From the IMG/VR virus record IMGVR_UViG_3300020457_000123, positions 1 to 21,282 of that record: a DNA stretch of 21,282 nt. One strand, 5' to 3'. The notes beneath the pieces were generated by a model. It ran no database searches and was not told the origin of the DNA. It saw only the letters and a program-made list of their open reading frames with translations. Numbering within the stretch: position 1 is the stretch's first letter; every line of letters begins with the position of its first letter. The position numbers and the translations under genes are program-made. Source of the DNA: a virus. This document shows positions 1-21,282 of the stretch, in pieces.

Positions 1-3000
1 CCGGTTATAAATCTAGCTTTTCTCAAAGAAGCGTTGGTGTTGGTTTTCAAGCTGGGAGTAGAAGCCAAGCCGATGATTCTATCTATTTAGGAAGATATGC
101 TGGATACCAAAATACTACAGACGATCTATTAATAATAGGCAGAAATAAATCCGCGTCTAATGGAACCTTGATAAAAGGTGATATGTCATCTAAAAAAGTT
201 GCTATTGGTAAAGCCGATGTTACTTTAAATGATACTCTTTATGTGGGTATAAATTCTTCAATAGATGTTGGCCTTGTAGTGCAGTCTGCTGCTGCTCAAT
301 CTTCAGACTTTACACAGTGGAAAAACAGCAATGGTGATGTTCTTGCAAAAGTTAAAAACTCTGGTATAATTGAAGCTGACACCATTGTTGCAACCGGAAC
401 GGGTTATTACTTTCCAGATGGAACTGTGCAATTTTCCGCAGCTGAAGCCGGTACGCTAACCAACATATATCAAAATGCTCAAGGTCATATTGGCGTTGGA
501 GTAATTAATCCACGAGCTTATCTGCATGTATCTGGAGATGCTAGAATAGATCAGGATTTAGTAGTTGCTGCCAGCGGTTTGGTTATCGGTAGTGGAGCAT
601 TGTCTGGAAACTATGATTTTGTTGGTATGAAGCATACCGCTATGACCGGTAGTAATGACTATATGATAATCAGCTCTGGAACCGATACTTTTGTTAGTGC
701 TGCAAATGATTCAATCTTATTTTTAAGAGGTGGTGGAAATGCCGCTGAATCAGAAATTAGATTATATGATGTAGCGGCTGGTAATGTTGGTATTGTTTTT
801 AATGAGGCTGGTGTTGATAGAGATGTTAGAATGGAAGGCGCTGGAGACACTAATCTTTTTAGACTTGATGCCAGCACAGATAGTGTTGGAATTGGAACAC
901 ACTTACCGGAATACAAATTAGATGTTAGGGGCAACATACAGGCAAAAGACACATTTGCAAAAATTCAAACTGTAGATGGCTCTGTTGTTACTAAAATACA
1001 ATCTGACTCAAGTGCTTCCGTTGGGTATTTTGGAACAGAGTCAAATAATGATTTACGCATCCGTACAAATAATACAGATATTGGTGTCTTTACAACAGAT
1101 GGCAGTATGGGCCTTGGCAAAACATCTTTAATATCTAGCACTAAACTAGACATAGATACCGCCAACAAAGATTATGGAGTTATAGTTGGAGGCACTAATG
1201 GTGCTAGCATATCGTTTCTTTCAAATGCAAGTATTACTGGAGTAAAAAGCGCAGCATATGGTTTTTATAGTTTTAGATTTCCAAGCACATCTGATGCTCA
1301 AATAAATAATCTTATTCATTTTCGTGCTGGTGGCCCGTATTCTTCTACGGCTAGCTCAACAGCTGTCACATCAAACATTGGATTTTATGCCGCTAGTGGT
1401 GTAAGATATAATGCTAGTAACGCATTTGGTTTTTATGGGGGTATAGAAGAGGGTAGTAACCATTGGAATCTATACATGTTTGGCTCTGGTCAAAACTATC
1501 TAGCTGGAAATGTTGGTATCGGCACAGATACACCACAATACCCACTTGAAGTTCATAGCAATAGAGCGCCGGGGCCGTGGATAAATCAGCAAGCTGGCAC
1601 AACAGGTGACGCTAGTACTATTGTATTACAGCAAAGAACAGCTGATGTTAGAATGGGTGTGGTTTACTCATACTCTACAAATTATGATGGCGGTAGTTTT
1701 CTAAGTGTTGGAGCTAGCGGTACTGCTTTTGCTAATATAGAAGGGCCAGTTGCTGTTGGAACACTGGAATCAAAGCCACTCACACTTGGCACAGCAAATG
1801 TAGAAAGAATAAGAGTAGCAGAAGGTGGCTATGTTGGTATCGGCACAAGTGAGCCAGCCTATAAACTGGATGTAGCTGGAACTGGTAATTTTGATTATCT
1901 AAATGTAAATGATAACGATAGCTTATTATCCATAGCTGGCAATGCTAGCAAAAGGGTAATTTTTAATGAAGATGCTCATGCTGACTATGATGTTAGAATA
2001 GAGGGTGCTTCTGATGTAAACTTATTCAGGACTGATGGAAGCTCGAATAAAGTTGGTGTTGGACTTATCCCGTCTTCTAAGTTCCATGTTAGTGGTGGCG
2101 TTGCAAGGTTTGATGGTAATGTAGGACTAGGCACTGCTGGAAGCACAAATGTCAGTATTTACTCTAGGAATCAAACCTCTTCTTCTGCTGCCGTACATTA
2201 TGGGTTCTTCATGCAGGATGACGTTGGCGGTGGCTGTACGGATCATTTGGGCTTTATATATTCAGGAAAATCAACTCAAAATTCCCTTAATTCATATTCA
2301 GCCTTTGTTGCTGGCAACGCTAAGACAATTACTGCTAGTACGGGTTATGGTTATTATATCACTAGTGGAGCTTTGATTGGAAGCGTAAACAATTATGGTT
2401 TTTACAGTCTTGTAAAGAAAGATGGTGATAAAAACTATAATCTTTATATGGACTCAGAAGCAACTAATTATCTTGGTGGTAATCTTGGTATTATGACAAC
2501 CACGCCATCAGTACCACTTTCTGTTTATCCAACAGGCATATCAGACACATCTACGCCAGCCCATGATGAGTTATTTAACAAGGTTATAGTTTATCAAGAT
2601 AATCCAAACACTAATGTCGCTGGATTTGGTGTAAGTACAAGCTCATTTAATATTGCAACTTCTGGTAGTATGCATCAAAGGTTCTGGACTAACTCCATAG
2701 AGCGAATGAGAGTTAGTAGTAATGGAAATATTGGCATAGGAACAACTAATCCTACACATCTTCTCGATGTTTCTGGTTCTGCTAGAGTTAATTCACTTAA
2801 TATAAATAGTGAGTTTACGCTACCGACAAGTGATGGTGTAGCTAACCAGATATTAAAAACTGATGGTGCTGGCAATGTTTTTTGGAGTACCACCGCCGCT
2901 GCTGGGATTGGCGCTGTTATTGATGACCTGACTCCACAGCTTGGTGGCAATTTAGATCTCAATGATTACGAGATACATGGAACTGGTAGTATTAATATTA

Positions 3001-6000
3001 TGTCTGGTTCTGGCATAATTACACATGAGGATGGTAAGTGTGGTTTGGTTGTTCAGGACACCGGTGGAAGTGGCGTACATATTGGCGACTGTGCTTATGG
3101 TCTTTCATCTCTATATTCGGGAATGAAGCATAGCGAGCATACTAATGGTAGTGAATATATGATCATTAGTCGCGGGCTAAACACATTTGTCAGCGCTAAG
3201 AGTGGAGCATCTTCTTTTATTAGAGCTGGTGCTAATTCTACGACTTATCAGGCGGTTGTATCTCCTACTTTTTTTGGTGTTGGTAATAGCTTTCATAGAT
3301 TAAGAATAGATTCTACTGGAGCAATCTTTAATACCGGATGCACAGGAGATTTAGACTTTCAGGTTAATCCTTTTGGCGATGAGGGGCATCTTCCCCTCAT
3401 TCATGCAGATGCCGCTTTGCATTCTGTTGGTATTGGCACTAATGCTCCTGACTCTTTGCTGCATGTTAAAAACACCGGCGTTGTAACCGACTTCAAGAAC
3501 GTTGTTCAAATAGAAGGCGATATAGACACGAACTCTTCGCCCTACACTGAAACCCTTGCTCTTGTAGGCACAGGATTATCTGGTTCTGCTTCTATTGGGT
3601 TTGGTCAATATTCTTATTCTGTAATAAAATCGGAGCATGACACAGACGGATCTCTTACTGCTGGCAAGTTAGATTTTTATATCAGATCTACTGCTTCTTC
3701 GCCAACCGTAAACATGACTCTAAATAGCAGTGGAAATTTAATTGTAACCCCTGAAAATAATAATGATTATGCTGTTCGGATTGGAAATAAATCTGGCGGT
3801 GGTGGTTCTGTAACTGGCGTTACTCTAATTGGTCTAGATCATTGGAATCCAACAGACGAATTTGCTTCAGCAGAAATTGGCGTTGTTGAAAATTCTACAG
3901 CGTCTTATAAATCAAATATTGTTTTCAATACTAGAGACACTTCCGCTAATGTAAAAGCCACAGAAAAAGTTAGAATTACACACGATGGTAATATTGGTGT
4001 TGGGACTACTGAGCCAGCCTTACAAAGTGCTGGTCGTGGCATACATATACATGACACCACATCTTCTGAAATTAAATTTACCAATGATACAACAGAATCA
4101 ACAGCCACAGACGGTACTGCTCTTGTATTAAATAGTAATAGCTTTACGATAAATAATAGAGAAGTTGGAGATTTGTTCTTCTCAACTAGCAACACCCAAA
4201 GAATGCAGATTTTATATCAGGGTGATGTTAGAATTAAAGGCAACACTAATGACAATTTGTTTTACACTGATTTTAGTGCAGACAGAATTGGTATTGGAAC
4301 TGATAGTCCTGACACCCTGCTTCATGTCGATGGAACTTCTAAATTATCTAATATTCAAATTTTTGATGGCAACATAGCTTCTCCCAACAGTGATCTTCAA
4401 ATAACAGCTGGCGGGTCTCAAGATACTAGAAATCATATATTATTAACAAATACTGGAGGTATTACACTAAATGGATCAACTCTTGTAACCGCAACTAATA
4501 AAAACATAAAGCTGGACTTAAGAGATAATGGTGGATCAATAATATTAGATGGTGGAAATGTAGGTATAAACAACGCCGCTCCCGCTTTCAACTTAGATAT
4601 TACCGGATCGGGTAGAATCACACACAATGATGGTAAGTGTGGGTTATTTGTAGAAGATACAAATGGTAGTGGTATTCATCTCGGTGACTGTGCTTATAGT
4701 AGTTCAAGCGCTTATTCTGGAATGAAACACTCTAATCATAGTGGCTCTAGTGAATATATGATTATAAGTAGCGGTCATTCTACCTTTGTGTCCTCTGCTA
4801 CTGGCGCTGGAACATATCTTCGGGCTGGCAATAATGATAGCACATATCAAGCTTTAATTACTGATACAACTTTTGGTATTGGCACTAATTCTGATAGGAT
4901 TAGGGTTAATAGTCAGGGTGTAATATTTAACAATGATCTTGGCAATTATGATTTTAGAATCATGCCTTTTGGTGTTGACAGGCCAACACTTCATGTTGAT
5001 GCGAGCAGTACTACGGGTGGTGCGGCTGGAAGAATAGGTGTTGGTAGGTATGCTGATGATTATATGATAGATGTTTCTGGTGGTTTACGCATTAGCCCAC
5101 TTGCTACTGCAACCCGTAACATTAGCGTGAATAGAAATGCTAGCACTCCAAGTATTACCGCAGATGGAGACACGGCTGAAAATCAGTGGTTGATAATGGA
5201 CAGTGCTGGTATGCGCTGTGCCTTGAATTACTTTGTTAGTGATGACGTAGTTTTGGCTCATGGCGGTGGAGGTGTTGGCATCGGGACTAATGCTGCTCCG
5301 GGTTCTTATGCGTTGAGAGTAGAAGGTGGCACTTCCGCGTTTAACGCTAGTCAAATAGAAGCTGCTAATTTTAGAGTTTTCGGAGAAGACGATGATGCAT
5401 TAATTTTTGGAGATGCTGGATTAAATCAAGTTGGTCTTGGCACATCTGTTCCTAGAACTAAACTAGAAGTTTTTGGTAGTGGTGTTGCTGGTCAAGCTAA
5501 GATAGAGGGAACTATACTAAGTAGAACTTTCCATCATGATTCTTATGCCGGTCTTTTGATTCGTGATAGGGACGATGTTAACATAGGCACGTTCCAACAT
5601 GGTGGATCTGGTACGAATGTAATTTCTAATGAAATAGCTATTGGTAGTAGACAAGACGCTACCCCGGTTGTATTTTATCAGGGCGCTGCATCCGCTGGTC
5701 AAGGCTTAGAAGACCGAGACAAGAGGCTTACGTTTGATACAGATCGCAATGCGGTTTTCCAAACTGGTGTTAATGTTGGTATTGGCGACACTTCGCCAAA
5801 CGTTCCCCTTTCAATTACTCCCGCATCTTATGCTGTAACAGCTACCCCAAATATTGATGAGGCGATTAATAAACTTAGACTGTATGATGTTGATGGTAAT
5901 GGGGTTGCTGGTTTTGGTATTAGTACTAGCACCTTCAATATTGCTACATCTGGAGCAATCAATCAAAACTTTTGGACTAATGGTTCGCGGGCGATGCAGA

Positions 6001-8627
6001 TTGGTCATTCAGCTCAGACTGTAGGCATAGGTGCTGATGCTACTACCGCATATCATCTGTATGTTCATACTGACATAACTAATTCTACTAGGCGTGGCGC
6101 TTATATAGATATAGACGCAGAAACAACAGAAACAGAAGTTACTAAGTTCAATATTGGTCAAACAATAGATTTAAGAAAGAATGTTCATCATGAAATTCGT
6201 GATAGTGGATACGCTTTAGGTTTAGATGTTAATGGTCTTATAGATGGTAGTGGTTACAGTAGATATGCTTATGGGGCAAGAACCTATGGTGGTGGTTATA
6301 CGGGATTCGGAGAAGGTGGTGTAATTGATCATACTTATGGTTTATACTCTAGAGCATTAAATTTTGGCTCTGGAACTATGGTCAATGCATATGGACTGTT
6401 TAGTGTAGTACAAAAAGTTCATAGTGCTGGAACTATTACTAATGCCTATGGTTTATATATTAATGCTATAGGTACTAATGCCACAAATCCATATGGTATA
6501 TATCAAGCCGGAACTAGTGATGATAATTATCTTGCTGGCAATGTAATGATTGGTAGAACAACATCCCATGAATTTACAGGATATAAAACGTTATCTATAG
6601 ATGGGACAAACGGATCGTTCATTGATCTTTACGATAATGGAACAGCCGAGCTTAGAATACAGGGGAATACTGAACATCAAACAATACAAACACTAAACTT
6701 ATCACCCCTTAGATTCTCTACAAATCAAATTGAAAGAATGAGGATTGGCCCAAGTGGTAACGTTGGTATTGGGACAACGACTCCTGCTCAAGTGCTTGAT
6801 GTGACCACTTCTGAAACGGAAGGGTTTGGTATTAACCTTCAACCACCATCGGCTCCAGCTGGAAGTGGTGATCATCAAAGTTTAATTACAGAAAATCGTT
6901 CAGATAGTATTATTACCAAACATCTTGAAAATGTGGCAAATGGTAGCTCTACGCTAGTAATGAAAAATCTGATTAGATATGGGGCAGATTTTGTATCTAT
7001 TGATGGCGCATACACTACTGGACTTGGCACTACCTTTGATCCTAAACTGTTAGTAAACACAGATAGTGGATATGTTGGTATTGGAACAAGTACCCCATCC
7101 CGCACATTAGATGTTTTGGGTTCTGGTAGATTTGTTCACTCGGATGGCACATGCGGATTAGTTGTTGAAGACACTGGTGGTAGTGGTGTTCACATTGGAG
7201 ATTGTGCGTATTTAACTGGTTCTACTTACACCGGAATGAAGCACAGCGCCCACACCAATTCTAGCGAGTATATGATAATAAGCCGAGGTGATCATACATT
7301 CCTCAGTGCAAAAGATGCTTATGGAGTTATTATTAGAGGTGGCAACAATAATTCATCGTCTGAAATACGAGTTTACGATGCTACTTCTGGCACTAACGGT
7401 GTTGTAATTAATGAGCAGGGTTCCGATGTAGATACTAGAATCGAAGGTGCTAATGATCAAAACTTATTGAAAGTAGATGCTAGTGCCGACAGTATTGGCA
7501 TAGGTACAAATTCACCAGCTTATAAATTAGACGTTGCTGGTAGTGGCGGCTTTGATGCTTCCGTTATGGTTGGTAGTGGTGTTGTTCTTCCTAACGCCGT
7601 GCCTTCTGATACATCTAATAAACTTTATAATGACGCTGGTACTTTAAAGTTTAATGGTTCTTCTATCGGTGGCGGTGGTGGCATAAGCAGTTTAGTAGAA
7701 GATACTACACCACAACTTGGTGGTAATTTAGATCTTAATAATAAAAATATAACTGGAATAGGTAATATTAATATTACTGGATCGATTGATGCTACTAGTG
7801 CTACATTTAGTGATGGTGCTGGTTCTTTTACTCTTTCAAGGGTTGCCTCAACTATTGCTACATGGAAAGAAGCCGCTGGTAGTATAGAATTAATAGCTGG
7901 TGCAGGCTCTACTCCTGCAATAACGATTACTAATCATACATTTGAATCAACTCCTACTGTAACCATCAATGATGATCAAATAGACATGGACTTTAGAGTT
8001 GAAGGTGATTCTGATGAAAATTTATTGTATGCAGACGCTAGTGCAGACAGTATTGGTGTAGGTACAAATTCACCAGCTTATAAATTAGACGTTGCTGGTA
8101 GCGGTGGTTTTGATGCTTCCCTTATGGTTGGTAGCGGGGTTGTTCTTCCTAACGCTGTGCCTCCTGACACTTCCGATAAACTTTACAATGATGCTGGTAC
8201 TTTGAAGTTTAACGGTTCTTCTATCACTGGCGGTAAAACAGATGAAGAAATACAAGACATTGTTGGTGGCATGGTTAGTGGTAATACTGAATCAGGAATT
8301 AGTGTTACCTACGATGACGCTGGAGATGGAACTGGTAAATTAAATTTTGCTGTCGCCTCTCAAACAGATGAAAACTTCACAACCGCTGATCATAGTAAAC
8401 TTGATCATATTGAAGCTTTAGCTGATGTTACTGATGCCACAAACGTAGACGCTGCTGGTGCGGTCATGAACACCGACACTTCGACTGCGAGCATGGATTT
8501 TGTTATAGATGAAGACAATATGGCATCTGATTCTAATACCAAAGTTCCAACACAACAATCTGTAAAAGCTTATGTAGACACCGAAGCTGTTCGCCCTTCG
8601 TATATAATGAGTATAATGTTTGGATAG
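1..8627 (+). CDS. Giant repeat-built tail fibre protein, 5' end outside window
   Basis: Phage tail fibre or receptor-binding adhesin, probably a trimeric fibre on the virion surface. The frame is open from base 3 to the TAG at 8625-8627, giving 2,874 visible residues; the TTG at 168 lies inside this frame and is not a convincing start, so the true start is upstream. The first 55 residues carry GxxAG-type repeats (e.g. GRYAGYQNTT) like the head beta-roll of YadA-like adhesins. Next comes a QWKNSNG segment (near 318), then about 23 loosely spaced repeats of the form V/I-G-I-G-T-x-x-P-x-x-x-L-D-V-x-G. Two PQLGGNLDLN spacers lie near 2935 and 7714. The C-terminus holds TDEEIQDIVGGMVSGNTESG and VPTQQSVKAYVDTE, then stops 8 residues later. 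No Peptidase_S74 autochaperone was recognised. Only nine cysteines are present. Fibre role confident; receptor unknown. Confidence 0.88.
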   Translation, partial: GYKSSFSQRSVGVGFQAGSRSQADDSIYLGRYAGYQNTTDDLLIIGRNKSASNGTLIKGDMSSKKVAIGKADVTLNDTLYVGINSSIDVGLVVQSAAAQSSDFTQWKNSNGDVLAKVKNSGIIEADTIVATGTGYYFPDGTVQFSAAEAGTLTNIYQNAQGHIGVGVINPRAYLHVSGDARIDQDLVVAASGLVIGSGALSGNYDFVGMKHTAMTGSNDYMIISSGTDTFVSAANDSILFLRGGGNAAESEIRLYDVAAGNVGIVFNEAGVDRDVRMEGAGDTNLFRLDASTDSVGIGTHLPEYKLDVRGNIQAKDTFAKIQTVDGSVVTKIQSDSSASVGYFGTESNNDLRIRTNNTDIGVFTTDGSMGLGKTSLISSTKLDIDTANKDYGVIVGGTNGASISFLSNASITGVKSAAYGFYSFRFPSTSDAQINNLIHFRAGGPYSSTASSTAVTSNIGFYAASGVRYNASNAFGFYGGIEEGSNHWNLYMFGSGQNYLAGNVGIGTDTPQYPLEVHSNRAPGPWINQQAGTTGDASTIVLQQRTADVRMGVVYSYSTNYDGGSFLSVGASGTAFANIEGPVAVGTLESKPLTLGTANVERIRVAEGGYVGIGTSEPAYKLDVAGTGNFDYLNVNDNDSLLSIAGNASKRVIFNEDAHADYDVRIEGASDVNLFRTDGSSNKVGVGLIPSSKFHVSGGVARFDGNVGLGTAGSTNVSIYSRNQTSSSAAVHYGFFMQDDVGGGCTDHLGFIYSGKSTQNSLNSYSAFVAGNAKTITASTGYGYYITSGALIGSVNNYGFYSLVKKDGDKNYNLYMDSEATNYLGGNLGIMTTTPSVPLSVYPTGISDTSTPAHDELFNKVIVYQDNPNTNVAGFGVSTSSFNIATSGSMHQRFWTNSIERMRVSSNGNIGIGTTNPTHLLDVSGSARVNSLNINSEFTLPTSDGVANQILKTDGAGNVFWSTTAAAGIGAVIDDLTPQLGGNLDLNDYEIHGTGSINIMSGSGIITHEDGKCGLVVQDTGGSGVHIGDCAYGLSSLYSGMKHSEHTNGSEYMIISRGLNTFVSAKSGASSFIRAGANSTTYQAVVSPTFFGVGNSFHRLRIDSTGAIFNTGCTGDLDFQVNPFGDEGHLPLIHADAALHSVGIGTNAPDSLLHVKNTGVVTDFKNVVQIEGDIDTNSSPYTETLALVGTGLSGSASIGFGQYSYSVIKSEHDTDGSLTAGKLDFYIRSTASSPTVNMTLNSSGNLIVTPENNNDYAVRIGNKSGGGGSVTGVTLIGLDHWNPTDEFASAEIGVVENSTASYKSNIVFNTRDTSANVKATEKVRITHDGNIGVGTTEPALQSAGRGIHIHDTTSSEIKFTNDTTESTATDGTALVLNSNSFTINNREVGDLFFSTSNTQRMQILYQGDVRIKGNTNDNLFYTDFSADRIGIGTDSPDTLLHVDGTSKLSNIQIFDGNIASPNSDLQITAGGSQDTRNHILLTNTGGITLNGSTLVTATNKNIKLDLRDNGGSIILDGGNVGINNAAPAFNLDITGSGRITHNDGKCGLFVEDTNGSGIHLGDCAYSSSSAYSGMKHSNHSGSSEYMIISSGHSTFVSSATGAGTYLRAGNNDSTYQALITDTTFGIGTNSDRIRVNSQGVIFNNDLGNYDFRIMPFGVDRPTLHVDASSTTGGAAGRIGVGRYADDYMIDVSGGLRISPLATATRNISVNRNASTPSITADGDTAENQWLIMDSAGMRCALNYFVSDDVVLAHGGGGVGIGTNAAPGSYALRVEGGTSAFNASQIEAANFRVFGEDDDALIFGDAGLNQVGLGTSVPRTKLEVFGSGVAGQAKIEGTILSRTFHHDSYAGLLIRDRDDVNIGTFQHGGSGTNVISNEIAIGSRQDATPVVFYQGAASAGQGLEDRDKRLTFDTDRNAVFQTGVNVGIGDTSPNVPLSITPASYAVTATPNIDEAINKLRLYDVDGNGVAGFGISTSTFNIATSGAINQNFWTNGSRAMQIGHSAQTVGIGADATTAYHLYVHTDITNSTRRGAYIDIDAETTETEVTKFNIGQTIDLRKNVHHEIRDSGYALGLDVNGLIDGSGYSRYAYGARTYGGGYTGFGEGGVIDHTYGLYSRALNFGSGTMVNAYGLFSVVQKVHSAGTITNAYGLYINAIGTNATNPYGIYQAGTSDDNYLAGNVMIGRTTSHEFTGYKTLSIDGTNGSFIDLYDNGTAELRIQGNTEHQTIQTLNLSPLRFSTNQIERMRIGPSGNVGIGTTTPAQVLDVTTSETEGFGINLQPPSAPAGSGDHQSLITENRSDSIITKHLENVANGSSTLVMKNLIRYGADFVSIDGAYTTGLGTTFDPKLLVNTDSGYVGIGTSTPSRTLDVLGSGRFVHSDGTCGLVVEDTGGSGVHIGDCAYLTGSTYTGMKHSAHTNSSEYMIISRGDHTFLSAKDAYGVIIRGGNNNSSSEIRVYDATSGTNGVVINEQGSDVDTRIEGANDQNLLKVDASADSIGIGTNSPAYKLDVAGSGGFDASVMVGSGVVLPNAVPSDTSNKLYNDAGTLKFNGSSIGGGGGISSLVEDTTPQLGGNLDLNNKNITGIGNINITGSIDATSATFSDGAGSFTLSRVASTIATWKEAAGSIELIAGAGSTPAITITNHTFESTPTVTINDDQIDMDFRVEGDSDENLLYADASADSIGVGTNSPAYKLDVAGSGGFDASLMVGSGVVLPNAVPPDTSDKLYNDAGTLKFNGSSITGGKTDEEIQDIVGGMVSGNTESGISVTYDDAGDGTGKLNFAVASQTDENFTTADHSKLDHIEALADVTDATNVDAAGAVMNTDTSTASMDFVIDEDNMASDSNTKVPTQQSVKAYVDTEAVRPSYIMSIMFG
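573..750 (+). repeat. Degenerate copy of the GMKH fibre module (copy 1)
   Basis: Encodes the sequence around GMKHTAMTG and DYMIISSG, ending in a TFVSA segment. It aligns with the three later Cys/His modules but lacks both cysteines and the second histidine. The sequence that follows it (SEIRLYD ... EGAGDTNLF) matches what follows copy 4, so copies 1 and 4 share a longer unit. Confidence 0.6.
2481..2747 (+). repeat. VPLS/FNIATSG fibre module (copy A)
   Basis: Encodes N-L-G-I, T-T-T-P-S-V-P-L-S-V, then A-G-F-G-V-S-T-S-S-F-N-I-A-T-S-G and a W-T-N-S segment, ending in the next GIGT repeat. The same series, about 88 residues, recurs at 5772-6035. Protein similarity is strong and DNA similarity moderate, so this is an older duplication than the C-terminal twin repeat. 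Confidence 0.75.
3003..3236 (+). repeat. Cys/His fibre module (copy 2)
   Basis: A module of about 78 residues reading S-G-S-G, H-x-D-G-K-C-G-L, S-G-V-H-I-G-D-C-A-Y, G-M-K-H-S-x-H-T, S-E-Y-M-I-I-S and T-F-V-S-A in order. The cysteine codons are at 3039 and 3090, and the GMKH histidines at 3129 and 3138. It closely matches copies at 4605 and 7119. Confidence 0.8.
4605..4839 (+). repeat. Cys/His fibre module (copy 3)
   Basis: Same order of elements as the copy at 3003: DGKCGLFVED, GIHLGDCAY, GMKHSNH, EYMIISSG and TFVSS. Both cysteines and both histidines of the GMKHSxH element are kept. After the module the sequence again parallels copy 2 (TYQA, then a short F-G-x-G segment), so the duplicated unit is longer than the core listed here. 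Confidence 0.8.
5772..6035 (+). repeat. VPLS/FNIATSG fibre module (copy B)
   Basis: Second copy of the module at 2481-2747: N-V-G-I-G, T-S-P-N-V-P-L-S-I, A-G-F-G-I-S-T-S-T-F-N-I-A-T-S-G, F-W-T-N-G, then the next GIGT-type repeat. Confidence 0.75.
7119..7356 (+). repeat. Cys/His fibre module (copy 4)
   Basis: Elements in order: HSDGTCGLVVEDTGGSGVHI, GDCAY, GMKHSAHT, EYMIISRG and TFLSA. Cysteines and histidines are at the same places as in copies 2 and 3. The downstream flank (SEIRVYD, EGANDQNLL, DASADSIGIGT) follows copy 1 rather than copies 2 and 3, which suggests the fibre grew by shuffling of modules. Confidence 0.8.
7479..7667 (+). repeat. C-terminal twin repeat, copy 1
   Basis: A unit of 189 bases, 63 codons, that recurs 558 bases (186 codons) downstream at 8037-8225. 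Both encode DASADSIG, GTNSPAYKLDVAGSGGFDAS, MVGSGVVLPNAVP and LYNDAGTLKFNGSSI. The DNA is identical over about 41 bases starting at 7503 and 8061, including synonymous positions, so the duplication is recent or kept alike by gene conversion. Confidence 0.85.
8037..8225 (+). repeat. C-terminal twin repeat, copy 2
   Basis: Partner of the repeat at 7479-7667 and in the same reading frame. The segment between the copies holds a PQLGGNLDLN spacer and a distinct beta-rich stretch. Recombination between the two copies would remove exactly 186 codons without breaking the frame. Confidence 0.85.
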
Positions 8628-10629: not shown

Positions 10630-10734
10630 TTAAAAAAGGAAAAAATAGGCTTATATAAAAAATGCAAATACCATAGAGGAATTAAATAATTTATAATTAT
10701 CGTAAAATGTGTATAAAAAACCGGAGGTAAAAAA
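10630..10734. other. 105-base intergenic gap with possible weak promoter
   Basis: Very AT-rich, with no ORF longer than a few codons. TATAAAAA at 10654-10661 matches the T4-type late box at 7 of 8 positions, and TATAAT occurs at 10692-10697 without a recognisable -35 box. GGAGG at 10723-10727 is the ribosome binding site of the next gene, spaced 7 bases from its ATG. No clear terminator hairpin. In DNA this AT-rich such boxes arise by chance. Confidence 0.3.
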
Positions 10735-11061
10735 ATGGCTTTTGTAGAAGAAGCGCATGTAAATGATATAGGTACTACTTTTCGTGTGACAGTATTTGAC
10801 ACTACATCTACTGGATCACTAACAGTTGCTGATATCAGTACTGCTACAACAAAACAAATTATATTGCGTGACCCAAATGGCAACACGCTAACGAAAACCG
10901 CTGTTTTTACCACTGATGGTACAGACGGTCAAATAGAATATGTAAGCGTTGATGGAGACTTGGGTATTGCTGGCACTTGGGCAATTCAAGCTAATGTAGT
11001 TACCGCTTCAAGTAATCACAAAACTTCTGTGGGCAAATTTAGAGTTTTCGAGAACTTATAA
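10735..11061 (+). CDS. BppU-N/Ig-like small tail or baseplate protein
   Basis: A 108-residue protein that forms one domain. It reads D-I-G-T-T-F-R-V-T-V-F-D, then ADISTATTKQIILRDPNGNT, L-T-K-T-A-V-F, D-G-T-D-G-Q-I-E-Y, G-D-L-G-I-A-G-T-W-A-I-Q-A and ends F-R-V-F-E-N-L. This order of strands is typical of the Ig-like domain found at the N-terminus of lactococcal phage baseplate protein BppU and of stand-alone relatives in many phages. It has the strongest ribosome binding site of the window (GGAGG) and a leading gap, which suggests high expression. Role as a tail-tip or decoration protein is inferred. Confidence 0.72.
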   Translation: MAFVEEAHVNDIGTTFRVTVFDTTSTGSLTVADISTATTKQIILRDPNGNTLTKTAVFTTDGTDGQIEYVSVDGDLGIAGTWAIQANVVTASSNHKTSVGKFRVFENL

Positions 11062-14633: not shown

Positions 14634-14648
14634 TTTCATTTCTGTGTA

Positions 14649-14656
14649 TATAAATA
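14649..14656 (+). promoter_or_regulatory. TATAAATA box, T4-type late promoter candidate
   Basis: Exact TATAAATA lies in the only sizeable gap between the connector block and the tail tube gene. Transcription would start about 12 bases downstream, leaving a leader of roughly 30 bases with AGGAG at 14683-14687 and the ATG at 14695. TATAAATA is the established late promoter of T4-like phages, read with a phage sigma factor. The box also occurs once inside the fibre gene (2801-2808), and one or two chance copies are expected in 21 kb of this composition, so position is the main support. Confidence 0.42.
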
Positions 14657-14694: not shown

Positions 14695-15738
14695 ATGGCT
14701 CGAAACCAACGTATATTTTACGCCTGCCAAGCTGTAGCTATCGTTAGAACCGGAGATACGAGTATCGACGCGGCTAAACAGATAGTTAAGGGTTTGCAGA
14801 GTGTTGGAATGAGTTCTACATTTACTCTTGATCAGGTTTTTGAAATGGGCCAGATTGAGATTTATGAAAATGTGGAGCAGGTAGCAGACATCGAGGTGAC
14901 ACTAGAAAAAGTTATTGATGGTGAAGCCCTCATTTATACTCTTGCTACGATTGATAATGCTGGAACAGCTGCTAGTTGTAGAACTGACCTTGTTGCGGCA
15001 TCGAAAGAAAAGTGTGATGTCTATGTTGCTATTTATGATGATGGTCTTTCACACGCCACGGGTACTCCCAGAAATGTCTGCATGAATTCAGGTATGTACG
15101 TTAGTTCTGTAAGCTATAGTTACAGTGTTGATGGAAGTGCTACTGAGTCTGTTACACTTGCTGGTAATGATAGATTCTGGAATACTACAACAGCTGGCGT
15201 TATTGGCACAAGCCCAGCCACAAACTATGGCAGTCCATCAACAGGATTTAATGGAGCAGATAGCGCTGCTTCTGGTGTTGTTCGTAAGGTTAATGTTGAT
15301 CTTTCAGCATCAACTCTACCGGCTGTCGTTAAATCTCAGGGTGGGGATATTTCTACTGCTGATAATAATTTCCATGTTCAGAGTATTACTGTTAGTACTG
15401 ACTTTGGACAGGAAAACATTGAAGAACTCGGACGATTCGGGCCGTATGCTCGTTATGCAACGTTCCCAATCGAAGTTACTGCTGAGTTTGAAGTTATTGC
15501 TACATCCGGTGACTTGATTGACGTTTCTGGAACAGCTCCTAACCTTTCTGATAATGATATTGTTATTAAGGATACAGCTGGAACAGTTCTTAATCTGGGT
15601 TCTGGTGGAGCTGGTAAGAATAAACTTACTTCCGTTTCCTATTCTGGTGGTGATACCGGTGGTGGAAATGCTACTGTTACATATAGTTTTTCAAACTTTA
15701 ATGTTCTAACAGTACATGATAGCTTCGACTTAAGCTAG
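14695..15738 (+). CDS. Major tail tube protein (probable)
   Basis: A 347-residue protein. Early residues hold FEMGQIEIYENVEQVADIEV followed by T-L-E-K-V-I-D-G, typical of a tube-forming beta fold. The middle has SGMYVSSVSYSYSVDGSATE and S-V-T-L-A-G-N. The C-terminal half has I-T-V-S-T-D-F-G-Q-E-N-I-E-E-L-G-R, GPYARYATFPIEVTAEFEV and VSYSGGDTGGGNATVTYSFS. These patterns match a tail tube family of large metagenomic phages as I recall it. Strong AGGAG, its own leader and a possible late promoter fit a highly made protein, and it lies three genes ahead of the tape measure gene. No sheath gene is adjacent, so the tail may be non-contractile. A major decoration protein is the less likely alternative. 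Confidence 0.75.
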   Translation: MARNQRIFYACQAVAIVRTGDTSIDAAKQIVKGLQSVGMSSTFTLDQVFEMGQIEIYENVEQVADIEVTLEKVIDGEALIYTLATIDNAGTAASCRTDLVAASKEKCDVYVAIYDDGLSHATGTPRNVCMNSGMYVSSVSYSYSVDGSATESVTLAGNDRFWNTTTAGVIGTSPATNYGSPSTGFNGADSAASGVVRKVNVDLSASTLPAVVKSQGGDISTADNNFHVQSITVSTDFGQENIEELGRFGPYARYATFPIEVTAEFEVIATSGDLIDVSGTAPNLSDNDIVIKDTAGTVLNLGSGGAGKNKLTSVSYSGGDTGGGNATVTYSFSNFNVLTVHDSFDLS

Positions 15739-15761: not shown

Positions 15762-16820
15762 ATGGACGATATATTTTACGAAAAAATATTATATAGAATA
15801 TTACAGGGTCGCTTAAGGCTGAAGCTTGGCGACCTTGTTCTATATGTATATGAACCCAGTAAAGATCTGTTAGAAGAGTCTATAGATATATACGAAGAAA
15901 CTTATAATAAGTCTTATTTTTCTGGTGTGCCAATTAAAAGTGAATTATTAGAGACTTTATTTGATAATAATCTATGGAGTCCCGATGATGACAAAAGGGC
16001 AGATGAGATAGATAAACAAATAGAACAAATGAAAGTAGAGGCTTTTAAAAACTTTCTCAAAAAGAAAAAGCTTCGAGGAATAAAAATGAATCTTAGGATG
16101 ATGGAAGGGCAAGCTAAAAAATATAGATCTAAGAGAATGGCACTAGACCACACTTCTTGTGAGGGGGCTGCTAATTTTGCAAGATCTGTTTGGATCACTT
16201 CTAAGACCACTAAGAACGTTGATGGCTCTGATTATGATTGGTATAAGTATACTATATCACATATCATGGAGCAGTCTAAAGAGCATGAAATATTAGGTAG
16301 TCATTATAGAAAAATAGCCAGATCAGAACCTTGGAGATCAATGTGGCTCGCTGGTACAAAGCAGGGAAATATTTTTAATAAGCCTTCCTCTGAATTTACC
16401 AAGGAACAATCTGTTCTTTGTTCTTTTTCTAATATGTATGATAATATTTATGAAAGTCCAGATGCCCCAGATCAAGATGTAATTGAAGACGATGACTGTT
16501 TGGATGGCTGGATGATTGAGCAGAAAAGAGAATCAGAAAAAAATAAGAAGAAAAAACAAGCAGAAGCGCTAATTAAGAATCCAAAGATTGCTAATTCAGA
16601 TGAGATATTTATTATGGCGACAGAAAAAGAAGAGGTTGATGCAATTTATGGAATGAATGATCCTTTTGCTAAAAATACTATCAACAGAAGAAATGCACAA
16701 ATAGACAATAGTGACGGCAATCTTGACTTTAGAAAGTTACAAGATGTTAAACAAGACATGCAAATGCAGTCCACTCAGGGCGGCATTGCACACGTAAAGA
16801 ATTTGCAGAGGAGTAAATGA
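15762..16820 (+). CDS. Tail assembly chaperone-slot protein, paralogue of the gene at 17202
   Basis: A 352-residue, highly charged protein. Residues 32-141 align without gaps to residues 30-139 of the protein at 17202, with about 27 identities in 110. Shared fixed points are P32, S40, Y44, S54-G55, W72-S73, R125, A127-L128-D129, S132, E134-G135 and A140-R141. The C-terminal half has an acidic stretch followed by CLDGWMIEQKRESEKNKKKK, likely a coiled or disordered arm. Position between tail tube and tape measure is where assembly chaperones such as lambda gpG/gpGT usually lie, but no sequence match to those was seen. A weak AGGA lies 6 bases before the ATG. Its stop overlaps the next start as ATGA. 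Confidence 0.65.
   Translation: MDDIFYEKILYRILQGRLRLKLGDLVLYVYEPSKDLLEESIDIYEETYNKSYFSGVPIKSELLETLFDNNLWSPDDDKRADEIDKQIEQMKVEAFKNFLKKKKLRGIKMNLRMMEGQAKKYRSKRMALDHTSCEGAANFARSVWITSKTTKNVDGSDYDWYKYTISHIMEQSKEHEILGSHYRKIARSEPWRSMWLAGTKQGNIFNKPSSEFTKEQSVLCSFSNMYDNIYESPDAPDQDVIEDDDCLDGWMIEQKRESEKNKKKKQAEALIKNPKIANSDEIFIMATEKEEVDAIYGMNDPFAKNTINRRNAQIDNSDGNLDFRKLQDVKQDMQMQSTQGGIAHVKNLQRSK
16808..16813 (+). promoter_or_regulatory. Ribosome binding site GAGGAG that bears on start choice
   Basis: GAGGAG lies 3 bases before the ATG at 16817 and 6 bases before the ATG at 16820. As at 8626, spacing favours the second of two tandem ATG codons. Confidence 0.55.
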
Positions 16821-17212
16821 TGGATGAAGATTACAATGGTTTCTTAAAAAGATCCTTAGATTTAAAAGCCGCTAGGGAGTCTAGATTTAAAGATTTATCA
16901 AGAGATAAATTATTTAAAACGGCTAAGAAGAAAGTACAAACCACTATGATTGGAGCATTATCCACCATAGAGGAACATTTTGGATTTCTTTGGGGTCTTG
17001 GTGTCAATGAAGACGATAAAAGCGAGGAGCAGAGAAAGCTACAAGAGTTGTATGAAGAAGTGAGAGCGAAGATACTAGACAGAGGAAACACACAAATTAG
17101 GAACTTAGAATCTGAATTTGTTAATTATGACATTACTAGAAAAAAGTATTTAATTAATCTACCGGTTTCAAAACCAGAAGAGAAAGAAGGAGAAGATAAA
17201 AATGAAGGATAA
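16817..17212 (+). CDS. Small helical protein in tail assembly chaperone slot
   Basis: A 131-residue protein (130 from the ATG at 16820), mostly helical and charged. Notable segments are KKVQTTMIGALSTIEEHFGF followed by LWGLG, and Y-E-E-V-R-A-K-I-L-D-R-G-N-T-Q-I-R-N-L. The K-x-T-T-x-I-G-A-L and I-L-D-x-G-N-x-Q-x-R segments are features I recall from small proteins near tail genes of other large phages. The C-terminal 20 residues are Lys/Glu-rich and probably disordered. It overlaps the next gene by 11 bases. It lies between two paralogous proteins, which suggests the three act together, perhaps holding the tape measure protein before tube assembly. That role is inference from position. Confidence 0.6.
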   Translation: MMDEDYNGFLKRSLDLKAARESRFKDLSRDKLFKTAKKKVQTTMIGALSTIEEHFGFLWGLGVNEDDKSEEQRKLQELYEEVRAKILDRGNTQIRNLESEFVNYDITRKKYLINLPVSKPEEKEGEDKNEG

Positions 17213-18170
17213 AAAATTACCAGAACAGGAAAGACTTATTAAAAGCGTTGATAGCGAAGATAATCCGGTGGAGGTTTTGGTTAAAAGACCAACTGCGGAA
17301 GATTATCGTGATTCTCAAGTAGCTTACAATAAAGAGTTTCGTAACGCACTTGATTCAGGGGGTTTGCTAAGACACAAACTAGTGGAGTACATGGAGGAGC
17401 AAGGAATCTGGAGCGATGAAAAACAAAAAAAGAATGATAGTTTTGTCGCACAGATTAGATCTAAGGAAGATGCTCTAAAGGCTGGTGGAATTAAATTGTC
17501 TGATGCAAAAGACATAGCATTAGAACTAAGAAATCTTAGATCAGAGTTCCAGTTATTCTTAGCAGAACGTAACGCTTTAGATGGCAACTCCGTAGAGGGG
17601 CAAGCAGACAACGCAAGATTCTCTTTCTTGATACTAAAATGCCTCTTGAACCCTAAAAGCAAAACGCCTCTTTTTGCCTCACAAAAAGATTACGATAAAG
17701 TTGCTGGCGAGCCATACATAGTAGAAGCCGCTGCTGAACTTGCCAATATGCTCTATGGGCTTGATCCCGACTATGCTCAAAATCTAGAAGAAAATAAATT
17801 CTTGAAAGAGTTTAAGTTTGTGAATGATGACTTAAGGCTTGTCGATAACGATGGGCATCTGGTTGATCTCGATGGGCGATTAATTAATGAAGACGGAAGA
17901 TTTATTGCCTACAGAACTGAAGAGGGCAGAAAGAAGAAAGACCAAGATCAGGTTTATTATGTTAATAAAGAGGGCGAAGAGGTTGTTCTCAAAGTAGATG
18001 CTGATGGAAACGAAGATTGGGTTACTTTAGACATGCAAGAAAGAAAGCCATTCTTGGATGATAATGATAAGCCTATAATTAGTAATTCAGATAAAAACAC
18101 TGAAAAAAAGGCTGCAAGTGCTTCAAAGAGGAAAAAACGCAGCACAAAAACAGAGGCTGAAACCTCATAA
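17202..18170 (+). CDS. Tail assembly chaperone-slot protein, paralogue of the gene at 15762
   Basis: A 322-residue protein. Residues 30-139 are homologous to residues 32-141 of the protein at 15762, keeping S-G, I-W-S, A-L-D and S-V-E-G-Q-A-D-N-A-R. The middle (residues about 140-212) is helical. Residues 213-235 hold three D-G turns in a row: V-D-N-D-G, V-D-L-D-G and I-N-E-D-G. A further V-D-A-D-G follows near residue 267, and the last 40 residues are Lys/Ser/Thr-rich and likely disordered. AAGGAG at 17187-17192 lies 9 bases before the ATG, within the preceding gene, so independent translation is likely. A terminator follows the stop. The function is inferred from its slot before the tape measure gene. 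Confidence 0.65.
   Translation: MKDKKLPEQERLIKSVDSEDNPVEVLVKRPTAEDYRDSQVAYNKEFRNALDSGGLLRHKLVEYMEEQGIWSDEKQKKNDSFVAQIRSKEDALKAGGIKLSDAKDIALELRNLRSEFQLFLAERNALDGNSVEGQADNARFSFLILKCLLNPKSKTPLFASQKDYDKVAGEPYIVEAAAELANMLYGLDPDYAQNLEENKFLKEFKFVNDDLRLVDNDGHLVDLDGRLINEDGRFIAYRTEEGRKKKDQDQVYYVNKEGEEVVLKVDADGNEDWVTLDMQERKPFLDDNDKPIISNSDKNTEKKAASASKRKKRSTKTEAETS
17838..17906 (+). repeat. Three tandem DG-turn repeats in the 322-residue protein
   Basis: Encodes L-V-D-N-D-G-H, L-V-D-L-D-G-R and L-I-N-E-D-G-R in direct succession, seven residues each, then F-I. The spacing of acidic residues recalls calcium-binding D-x-D-G loops, but it could equally be a simple beta-hairpin repeat. Confidence 0.6.
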
Positions 18171-18202
18171 TTGTGTATTAATTAAAAAGGACACACCGGT
18201 TT

Positions 18203-18229
18203 AGGGGGAAATTTTTCCCCCTCCTTTTT
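18203..18229 (+). terminator. Rho-independent terminator before the tape measure gene
   Basis: AGGGGGAA at 18203-18210 pairs with TTCCCCCT at 18215-18222 around a four-base loop, giving an 8-bp stem with five G-C pairs. TTTTT at 18225-18229 follows. The stem works only in the + direction, since the other side has no T tract. It lies 32 bases after the stop of the 322-residue gene and only a few bases before the ribosome binding site of the tape measure gene. Confidence 0.8.
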
Positions 18230-18240
18230 ATGGAGCAAAG

Positions 18241-21200
18241 ATGGCAGAACGGTTCAATCTTACAGCGCAGCTACAGCTACAAGCACCTACTAATACAAGA
18301 CAAGTAGTATCACAAATACGTAGTCAACTTGGCAACATTAATGCAAATGTTAATGTTCAGGCTAACGCTAAGGCTATTAGTCAAACTAGTGGAGCTTTGC
18401 AAACTACTGCAAAAAATGCTAAACAGGCTGGTAGGGACATTGGTGTTCTTAATAAGAATCTTTCTGAAGCTGCTAGACGCTTTGGTGTAATTACTTTAGC
18501 TACTGGCACAATGCTGTCATTTGCTCAGGCTGTTAAAAGGGCTGTGGGCGAGGCAATAGCCTTTGAACGCGAGCTTGTAAAAATTTCTCAAGTAACAGGT
18601 AAAACGGTAAAGGAGTTATCTGGTCTTACTTCGGAAATAACCAACTTGGCTACTGGTCTTGGGGTTTCATCTTCTAGCCTTTTGGAAACATCTAGAATTT
18701 TAGCTCAGGCCGGTTTTTCTGCTGAAAAGACAAAGCAGGCATTAGACATTCTCGCTAAAACAACTTTAGGCCCAACATTTGATAGTATATCAAATACGGT
18801 AGAGGGTGCTATTGCTGTCTTAAGGCAGTTTAGGGCTGAAGCTCAATCTGCTGGTGGTGAGATACAGTATCTAGAATCAACACTAGATGCAATCAACAGC
18901 GTGTCGAAAAGTTTTGCGGTTGAATCTTCTGACTTGATTACTGTAATCCGTCGTGTGGGTGGTGTGTTTTCTGCTGCCGGTGGCGGTGTCAATGAGCTTA
19001 TAGCTTTATTTACATCTGTTCGTTCTACTACGCGAGAATCTGCTGAGACTATCTCCACAGGTTTAAGAACTATTTTTACACGTATTCAGAGAACAGAAAC
19101 TGTTGATCAATTAGAACAATTAGGTATTTCTCTTCGTGATGCTCAGGGTCAATTTGTTGGAGCTTTTGAGGCTACAAAGAGACTAGCTACAGGACTTTCG
19201 GCACTTGATCCTAAAGACTATAGATTCAGTCAGATAGTAGAACAGCTTGGTGGATTCAGACAGATTGGCAAAGTTATTCCTCTTATACAGCAATTCGCCG
19301 TAGCACAAGATGCTTTAAATGTTGCACAAAACGCTTCCGGTTCTGTGGCGCGTGATGCGATTACCGCACAACAATCATTAGCTGTTCAAGCCCAAAAGGT
19401 TAGAGAGGAATTCTCGGCTCTTATTCGTACATTAGCAGACAGTGAATCATTCAGATCTATCGCTGGTGGGGCTTTGCAATTAGCTAGCGCTTTAATTAAA
19501 ATAGGTGAAGCTTTAGAGCCTGTACTTCCATTATTGACGAGTTTGCTCGCTCTCAAGATAGGTCAAGGTTTAGCTCCGGGGCTTGCGGCTCTTGTTGGTG
19601 TTAGAAGAAAGTCTCAAGGGGGAGTCATACATCGCGCGAGTGGTGGATATGTTCCGGGTACTGGAAATAGAGATACAGTTCCCGCAATGCTTACGCCGGG
19701 AGAGTTTGTAATAAAGAAGAGTAGTGCTGCTAAACTTGGCTCTGATACTCTCAACGCCATGAACAATAATAGATTTAGCAGGGGTACAACTCTAGCTGAC
19801 ATTAACAGAATGAAAAGCGATGTTGGCTCAGGATCAATTGCTTTAAATACAAAACAAGATGCTCAGGGTAAATCAAAAGTTCTAGGCACTATGAAGCTTG
19901 CAAAAAGCAGAGCTGAAGCATCTGCCGATAATGATAGTTATGGCGCAGCTTTCTTGCGTCCTGTTGGTTCTCTTGGTGATTTTGACGGCTCTCTAAAAAA
20001 GGGAGAGATGACAAAATACCTACAGGGATCTGTTGGTTATAAGGCTCTTAAAGCCCTTCAGAAAAGATTTCCTACCATAAAAGCTCAAGCTGATAGCGTT
20101 ATAGATTCATATGCGAATCGTAATACTTATTCTTTTCGTGCTGGTAGCTTAGGTCAGAAAGATGCTGCTGATTTAGAGGGTATAATTTATAGTGGCGTAA
20201 TTAATACGGTAGAAAGCGGTGTCGATAGGCTGGGGCAGCAGTTAGGTATAAGGGACAACATTGATGCTGCGGCTGCTTTAAAACAGGCTAACATCGATCA
20301 AACTGTTGGTAATATATTTGAGTCTATATTAACTTTTGGTGGCGCTCCATTTGACAAAAACACTCAAAGGGCTGCAAATGCCCCGTTTGATTTTCCAACA
20401 GGTCTTGGTAGTGGTTTGGCTCAAAGGTTTGGATCACTAGCTCCAAATAGACCAACCGATGCTAAAGCAAGCTACAATCAAGATGCGCTTAAATCCGTAA
20501 TTGGTAAAATAAGAGCTACATTATTCAAAGAAAGTGAACTTGAGCTTGATCCAATATTAACGGCTGCTGCTACCGCCATCCAACAACAGGCTCTTGGAGG
20601 TGATCCTCTTACGGCAGATAGAAAACAAATTAGAAAACTTAATGAAGCAACAGTTGGTGCTAGAGCAGCAAAAGCGGCTAGAAGAAGAATGGCTTCTGGT
20701 GGAATGGTCGATACAGTTCCAGCCCTTCTTACTCCCGGCGAGTTTGTTGTTAATAAATCTTCCGCACAAAGTATAGGTTACAGTAATCTGAGCAAGATGA
20801 ATCAAACCGGTGTTGCCAAGTTTAATACTGGTGGTGTTGTTCGCAAATACGCTAATGGTACTGGCCCTACCGGTGTTACTAGAGGTTCACTAGCCGGATC
20901 TCCTATTGCTCTTGCTGGTGACAATGCTGGACTTTCTGCTGCTATAGATAGATATATAAAAGCACTAACTAATGCTTCAATGCAAACAAGTAAAACTTCT
21001 AGCAGGGCTAATGCAGAAAGTCAAGCTAGATCCAAACTAGTTAATATGTATATTGCTTTGAGTCAATCAACATCTAATGCAAATAACACAACAAAAACGT
21101 TTAGTCAGCAGGTAAAAAAGACATTTCCAAGATTTACTCAACTTGCAAGCGCTATTCAGCGTGGCTCGGCATCATTAGCTTCTGGTGTGAGTGGTGCTGT

Positions 21201-21282
21201 TGGCTCTGTTCGTGGTGCTATTAGTAGCCCTCAAGGTCAAGCTGGATTGCAGCAATTAGATCAAGTTGCTGGATCTATGCAG
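18241..21282 (+). CDS. Tape measure protein, 3' end outside window
   Basis: Sets tail length and is threaded through the tube. The frame is open from this ATG to the window edge, 1,014 residues visible. GGAG at 18232-18235 lies 5 bases upstream. Residues 1-60 are Gln/Asn-rich and helical. Residues about 100-330 look like the TP901/PhageMin_Tail core: FERELVKISQVTGKT, G-L-G-V-S-S-S-S-L-L-E-T-S-R-I-L-A-Q-A-G, and later TISTGLRTIFTRIQRTE. Residues about 425-457 are hydrophobic. Two copies of D-T-V-P-A-x-L-T-P-G-E-F-V lie at residues 478-490 and 824-836. Between them, residues about 569-760 form a distinct domain with E694, D717 and D740-A741-K742. After 860 the sequence returns to Gln/Ser/Ala-rich helix. 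Identification is confident; the inserted domain is uncertain. Confidence 0.9.
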   Translation, partial: MAERFNLTAQLQLQAPTNTRQVVSQIRSQLGNINANVNVQANAKAISQTSGALQTTAKNAKQAGRDIGVLNKNLSEAARRFGVITLATGTMLSFAQAVKRAVGEAIAFERELVKISQVTGKTVKELSGLTSEITNLATGLGVSSSSLLETSRILAQAGFSAEKTKQALDILAKTTLGPTFDSISNTVEGAIAVLRQFRAEAQSAGGEIQYLESTLDAINSVSKSFAVESSDLITVIRRVGGVFSAAGGGVNELIALFTSVRSTTRESAETISTGLRTIFTRIQRTETVDQLEQLGISLRDAQGQFVGAFEATKRLATGLSALDPKDYRFSQIVEQLGGFRQIGKVIPLIQQFAVAQDALNVAQNASGSVARDAITAQQSLAVQAQKVREEFSALIRTLADSESFRSIAGGALQLASALIKIGEALEPVLPLLTSLLALKIGQGLAPGLAALVGVRRKSQGGVIHRASGGYVPGTGNRDTVPAMLTPGEFVIKKSSAAKLGSDTLNAMNNNRFSRGTTLADINRMKSDVGSGSIALNTKQDAQGKSKVLGTMKLAKSRAEASADNDSYGAAFLRPVGSLGDFDGSLKKGEMTKYLQGSVGYKALKALQKRFPTIKAQADSVIDSYANRNTYSFRAGSLGQKDAADLEGIIYSGVINTVESGVDRLGQQLGIRDNIDAAAALKQANIDQTVGNIFESILTFGGAPFDKNTQRAANAPFDFPTGLGSGLAQRFGSLAPNRPTDAKASYNQDALKSVIGKIRATLFKESELELDPILTAAATAIQQQALGGDPLTADRKQIRKLNEATVGARAAKAARRRMASGGMVDTVPALLTPGEFVVNKSSAQSIGYSNLSKMNQTGVAKFNTGGVVRKYANGTGPTGVTRGSLAGSPIALAGDNAGLSAAIDRYIKALTNASMQTSKTSSRANAESQARSKLVNMYIALSQSTSNANNTTKTFSQQVKKTFPRFTQLASAIQRGSASLASGVSGAVGSVRGAISSPQGQAGLQQLDQVAGSMQ
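19639..19764 (+). repeat. TPGEF motif of tape measure protein, copy 1
   Basis: Residues 467-508: S-G-G-Y-V-P-G-T-G-N-R, DTVPAMLTPGEFVIKKSSA, then L-G, a leucine and M-N. This motif is frequent in tape measure proteins of diverse phages, with unknown role. It carries six extra residues (472-477) compared with copy 2. Confidence 0.8.
20695..20802 (+). repeat. TPGEF motif of tape measure protein, copy 2
   Basis: Residues 819-854: S-G-G-M-V, DTVPALLTPGEFVVNKSSA, then I-G, a leucine and M-N at the same spacing as copy 1. It is followed by a second glycine-rich T-G-G-V-V turn. Confidence 0.8.

Follow-up and report, generated by a model that had tools for sequence, protein, structure and literature searches.

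Does the stretch between the tail tube and tape measure genes of this phage encode a pair of tail assembly chaperones, and if so, is the pair made without recoding? Most long-tailed phages produce two forms of one tail chaperone by ribosomal frameshifting, and the frameshifted gpG/gpGT pair is among the most widely conserved tricks of these phages. The chaperone coats the tape measure protein, the ruler of tail length, during assembly, and its two forms are needed at a fixed ratio. We analysed a linear viral record from IMG/VR, 21,282 bases long, the whole of which is referred to as the window. The initial annotation had described in it two paralogous proteins, here P1 and P3, on either side of an unrelated small protein, P2, and had proposed a heteromeric complex that coats the tape measure protein, unlike gpG/gpGT. 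The three genes lie exactly where it had placed them, in the following arrangement:

14695..15738, + strand: candidate major tail tube protein gene, 347 aa
15762..16820, + strand: P1, paralogue 1, 352 aa, with a chaperone-like domain at about residues 17-205 followed by a helical C-terminal extension
16817..17212, + strand: P2, 131 aa, small and conserved, unrelated to P1 and P3 and without a known family
17202..18170, + strand: P3, paralogue 2, 322 aa, with a chaperone-like domain at about residues 9-190 followed by C-terminal regions
18241..21282, + strand: tape measure protein gene, N-terminal 1014 aa, continuing beyond the window

The gene at 18241 can be assigned firmly from its sequence, its product matching the PHROG 4211 tape measure family (E 4e-23) and Pfam PF10145 (E 6e-22). 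The gene preceding P1, which we infer to encode the major tail tube protein, belongs to a family in which 14 of 28 relatives match PHROG 985 'virion structural protein' (best E 5.8e-7), and a PDB sequence search with the candidate tube protein gave no match. Further upstream, also on the + strand, a large fibre-like protein is followed by several small genes and then by the candidate tube gene. The fibre-like protein is a very large open frame (window 3-8627, at least 2874 aa), in which VGIGTxxPxxxLDV recurs many times and the blocks SGVHIGDCAY... and YMIIS.G..TFVSA are repeated.

The paralogy of P1 and P3 had been proposed from a gapless alignment of P1 residues 32-141 with P3 residues 30-139 at a constant offset of 2, with 27 identities in 110 counted by hand, and a recount gave exactly this number. 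The best ungapped segment between the two proteins lies on the same diagonal (P1 29-152) and has a BLOSUM62 score of 112, compared to a maximum of 50 in 200 shuffles. A gapped Smith-Waterman alignment scored 123 (44.1 ± 6.9 for 1000 shuffles, none as high), and pairwise BLASTP resulted in an E value of 5e-7. The gapless character holds for this pair, but the alignment is nearly, not perfectly, gapless once more sequences are included. Profile-profile comparison with hhalign, which had been suggested as a check, gave a probability of 96.1 and an E value of 3.5e-9 with 26 relatives on each side, and a probability of 99.2 and an E value of 2.4e-19 over 134 columns with 46 diverse P3 against 45 diverse P1 sequences. 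In the corresponding controls with the P1 profile, none of 15 column-shuffled P3 alignments scored above 17.7 and the reversed P3 alignment gave 12.4, whereas the real alignment scored 132. Weaker similarity extends beyond the diagonal to about residue 207 of P1 and 191 of P3, and a conserved Trp and an E-G-x-A motif are kept in the shared domain of both proteins. Thus, P1 and P3 carry one homologous domain, and the signal is stronger than had been claimed.

We then asked how widely this arrangement is found. A first scan for P3 gave 34 viral contigs; scans with family alignments located 331 places encoding relatives of P3, 243 of P2 and 159 of P1, of which 80 loci each were kept, and an additional 8 contigs came from marine or environmental MAG bins. 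The order P1-P2-P3 is present in 211 of 219 loci, the remaining 8 being cut by the end of the stretch. As many loci overlap, they correspond to 88 distinct versions of the cassette. Divergent queries added 22 loci, all with the same order, and among the stretches with enough room in both sets (219 loci and 22 further ones) we saw none lacking P1, P2 or P3. The surroundings are constant too: among relatives with room, P1 is immediately preceded by the candidate tube gene in 72 of 73 and P3 immediately followed by the tape measure gene in 85 of 85. The cassette hence occupies the position between tube and tape measure genes, with the reservation that the tube gene is a candidate.

A tree of the shared domain, built by maximum likelihood from 33 P1 and 33 P3 sequences over 126 columns, separated a P1 clade from a P3 clade with a support of 100/100 and a single label change. 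As each protein forms a clade of its own, P1 and P3 stem from one ancient duplication, which is therefore older than the sampled radiation, both copies having been retained since. The mean identity of the shared domain is 46% within the P3 family, 32% within the P1 family and 19% between the families, i.e. P3 is more conserved and P1 evolves faster.

P2 is not a third copy of this domain. We considered this origin and rejected it, as P2 matched neither the P1 nor the P3 profile (hhalign probability under 1%), in agreement with its description as an unrelated protein. Each of the 88 distinct sets and of the 22 further loci has P2 between P1 and P3. As an obligate third member of the module, P2 would probably serve as an adaptor or partner of the other two proteins.

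If two related products are encoded in the chaperone slot, a programmed frameshift of the lambda type has to be considered, with P1 and P3 as a conventional G/GT pair that has taken up an extra gene. Short slippery-like heptamers do occur in P1, P2 and P3 of the window. Canonical in-frame A/T-type heptamers, however, are shared at the best aligned column by only 18 of 86 P2, 9 of 83 P1 and 9 of 86 P3 genes, so that no aligned position carries one in more than 18 of 86 relatives. Moreover, the frame of P2 relative to P1, and that of P3 relative to P2, differs between relatives, and in the window ribosome-binding-like sequences precede P2 (AGAGGAG) and P3 (AAGGAG). With no conserved heptamer, varying frames and ribosome-binding-like sequences, the three genes thus appear to have a translation start each. 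We regard a hidden programmed frameshift in the cassette as extremely unlikely, and the initial distinction from the frameshifted lambda pair stands in this respect.

We next compared the predicted structures of the two proteins. AlphaFold (AF2) models calculated from the family alignments have a mean pLDDT of 86.4 for P1 and 84.2 for P3, and the shared part is modelled confidently. The predicted elements are strands 17-22 and 25-30 and helices 34-53, 59-68, 74-96, 101-125 and 133-149 in P1, and strands 10-16 and 22-28 and helices 32-51, 57-66, 72-94, 99-128 and 131-147 in P3. Both models therefore consist of a two-strand hairpin followed, in identical order, by helices of 20, 10, 23, 25-30 and 17 residues, so that neither the profiles nor the predicted folds contradict the proposed relationship. 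The models diverge past about residue 205. P1 continues with a long, conserved, helical C-terminal region that has its own conserved motif, EDDDCLDGW, and P3 with beta-rich DGxLVDxDGRLIxEDGR repeats and a disordered Lys-rich tail.

The P3 tail varies among the relatives. In one branch (L026, L027, L028, L029, L031, L032 and L033) it reads PKKRGRPKKTEE, which is AT-hook-like. The Pfam family AT_hook was matched by 7 of 26 P3 members with a best E value of 0.016, and the other tails are rich in Lys without an AT-hook-like sequence.

A search of 350,542 PDB chains with the P3 model resulted in the HK97 tail assembly chaperone (2ob9) as top match with both VIA-align and Foldseek. VIA-align aligned 98 of the 107 residues with a Z score of 8.8, the next match having 6.7; Foldseek ranked 2ob9 first (probability 0.92, TM score 0.57 on the target) and its second chain seventh. 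In absolute terms the match is middling, with a Foldseek E value of 0.4 and a Z score that unrelated helical models can also reach. It seems to require a long inserted helical hairpin in P1 and P3. A search of viral structures (BFVD) with P1 and P3 gave weak matches only, among them several annotated tail chaperones such as the 'pre-tape measure frameshift protein G' of Xylella phage Sano. PHROG 344 'tail assembly chaperone' was matched by 5 of 46 P3 members (best E 0.0095), a weak and only suggestive result, and apart from this family single P1 and P3 members yielded sub-threshold noise against the PHROGs. We found neither an above-threshold sequence match of P1 or P3 to curated chaperone families nor a meaningful Pfam match, and nothing meaningful in a PDB sequence search with the P1, P2 and P3 profiles.

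These modest scores leave room for a reading in which neither P1 nor P3 is a chaperone, P1, P2 and P3 being structural proteins of the tail whose genes precede the tape measure gene by chance, and the HK97 match reflecting a common helical arrangement. Z values of this size can arise by chance for helical bundles, and a significant family match is lacking. What gives the match its weight is that a tail assembly chaperone tops the list for a gene in the chaperone slot, an unlikely coincidence among 350,542 chains, and we consider the structural reading to be quite improbable.

Somewhat less improbable, but still unlikely, is that only P3 is the tail assembly chaperone and that P1 is a diverged paralogue with another task in the tail, such as starting or completing the tube, and remains part of the virion. 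The HK97 chaperone is the top PDB fold match for P3 alone, and both the faster evolution of P1 and its long conserved helical C-terminal region with the EDDDCLDGW motif would suit such a role. However, the VIA-align search with the P1 model compared only 317 chains, so the absence of 2ob9 from them is uninformative, and the shared domain is full-length in both proteins, including the conserved Trp and E-G-x-A. The P1 matches from VIA-align were rejected as functional evidence, since they cover only coiled-coil-like helices over residues 58-132.

Taken together, P1 and P3 are probably paralogous tail assembly chaperones, each with a gene of its own, and the two genes go back to one old duplication. 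The initial placement of the locus in the chaperone slot is borne out by a duplicated chaperone-like domain flanking a small unrelated gene, by the synteny with the tape measure gene and by the fold match of P3 to the HK97 protein. Its statement that the arrangement is unlike gpG/gpGT holds genetically, yet separate-gene chaperone pairs have a precedent.

This precedent is phage T4, whose gp26 and gp51 reportedly represent a separate-gene TAC-N/TAC-NC chaperone pair (said to have been described by Vladimirov, Gautam and Davidson in 2022). Like P1 and P3, these are two paralogous chaperone or chaperone-like proteins from two genes, without a frameshift; in a single-sequence hhalign comparison gp26 and gp51 matched with a probability of 59 and an E value of 9e-5. 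The P1 and P3 profiles gave hhalign probabilities of 0.1-0.9 (P 0.06-0.8) against the single sequences of gp26 and gp51, and homology to T4 gp26, gp51 or gp28 was rejected, as none was found. The layouts differ as well. T4 genes 26 and 51 are encoded on different strands and enclose no third gene, whereas the cassette contains a conserved one, and in T4 genes 27 and 28 part gene 51 from the tape measure gene 29, whereas P1-P2-P3 touches the tape measure gene. Finally, T4 belongs to a different lineage, and we found no sheath gene in 16 records of the P1-P2-P3 phages. Frameshift-free chaperone pairs are known from T4, and P1/P3 differ from them by lineage, the third gene, adjacency to the tape measure gene and an apparent lack of a sheath. 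We also considered homology to the tail-region genes of Bacillus phage Slash, Microcystis phage MaeS and SPbeta, which were chosen for a distantly similar terminase or tape measure protein; none was found and this origin was rejected.

The resemblance to HK97 lies in the fold of P3 and in the position of the gene, the HK97 chaperone gene occupying the same slot before the tape measure gene. The HK97 chaperone has only 107 residues compared to about 180 in the domain of P3, which shows an apparent helical insertion, and there is no sequence match; P1 (352 aa) and P3 (322 aa) as a whole are much longer than the HK97 protein. In lambda the long form gpGT is made by a -1 frameshift (PMC5009743). 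The lambda tape measure protein is bound by gpG and by the G portion of gpGT, and tube protein is recruited through the T portion (PMC5009743, PMC4493119). The cassette shares with this system two products that have a common N-terminal domain and are encoded between the tube and tape measure genes. It differs in that P1 and P3 lack a conserved slippery site, are both extended at the C-terminus and are separated by a third gene.

From these comparisons we infer a scheme comprising chaperone function, co-assembly, tube recruitment, a role for P2 and transcriptional control. P1 and P3 would each provide the same N-terminal chaperone domain and a C-terminal extension of their own. By analogy with gpG/gpGT, the shared domains might assemble jointly along the tape measure protein to keep it in solution, and either the P1 or the P3 extension might bind and recruit tail tube subunits in the manner of gpT. 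Because the two forms come from separate genes, the P1:P3 ratio would be set by separate initiation instead of frameshifting. It speaks against this scheme that both proteins are much longer than the HK97 chaperone and bear C-terminal extensions, which leaves no short 'G-only' form. A further-reaching version, possible but rather doubtful in our view, is a putative obligate heteromeric sleeve of P1, P2 and P3 on the tape measure protein that originated independently of T4 and whose stoichiometry is set not by recoding but by operon layout, with promoters ahead of the tube and tape measure genes and a terminator following P3. With P1 and P3 as two separately encoded chaperones, this would be a lineage of large phages that apparently solves the gpG/gpGT problem by gene duplication, keeps both copies throughout the sample and has added a third conserved protein. 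It would offer a natural experiment in which each of the two chaperone roles can be deleted, expressed or mixed independently of the other, and it suggests a likely function for hypothetical proteins in hundreds of metagenomic phage contigs that match no annotated family.

The region also contains candidate expression signals:

14643..14652, + strand: promoter-like motif TGTGTATATA, upstream of the candidate tube gene
18171..18180, + strand: strict promoter-like motif upstream of the tape measure gene
18203..18222, + strand: terminator-like hairpin followed by a T run, between P3 and the tape measure gene

In 70 of 74 relatives the motif tttTTGTGTATA lies no more than 130 bp ahead of the candidate tube gene, with a median distance of 56 nt to the start of the open reading frame. 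Before the tape measure gene the strict motif is present in 51 of 85 relatives, about 75 nt upstream (0.02 expected per 65 bp). Within 130 nt upstream of the starts of P1, P2 and P3 the promoter-like motif was absent from all relatives (0/83, 0/88 and 0/88, respectively). The conserved motif TTGTGTATA is possibly the late promoter of this phage group. It also occurs at window position 10708, before a gene at 10735.

The 90 nt past P3 fold with a mean z score of -2.6 (43 relatives, mononucleotide shuffles), and the other junctions of the cassette gave -0.8, -0.2 and +0.6 with the same shuffles. With dinucleotide shuffles the z score of the hairpin between P3 and the tape measure gene is -1.8 in the window and ranges from -1.0 to -4.4 in 7 relatives. 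In most relatives this region thus folds more strongly than its shuffled versions, which does not hold for the other junctions. On sequence grounds, the tube gene, P1, P2 and P3 look like one transcript ending at the hairpin, with the tape measure gene under its own promoter. The ratio of chaperone to tape measure protein may then be set by transcription, through the hairpin and the separate promoter-like motif of the tape measure gene.

Tblastn searches of 50,697 phage records with P1, P2, P3, the tube gene and divergent P1 and P3 sequences recovered no true relative, nor did a search for P3 in plasmids. The phage group is apparently common (331 P3-bearing stretches) and uncultured, with contigs of up to about 175 kb and no isolate in INPHARED. 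Its members are apparently sheath-less phages of about 100-165 kb. The tail sheath family PF04984 was absent from the 16 records, which span 92-161 kb, and was detected in control genomes. A contractile tail is therefore unlikely, although the absence could also stem from a diverged sheath or from incomplete records. The contigs L212-L219 were binned with MAGs of SAR202, Micavibrio, Verrucomicrobiales, Flavobacteriales and Woesebacteria, i.e. of unrelated phyla; these are probably binning errors, so they do not indicate a host. The terminase of the group shares about 26% identity with its counterparts in Bacillus phages Stills and Slash and in Microcystis phage MaeS, and shows a distant relationship to Bacillus phage Slash and SPbeta.
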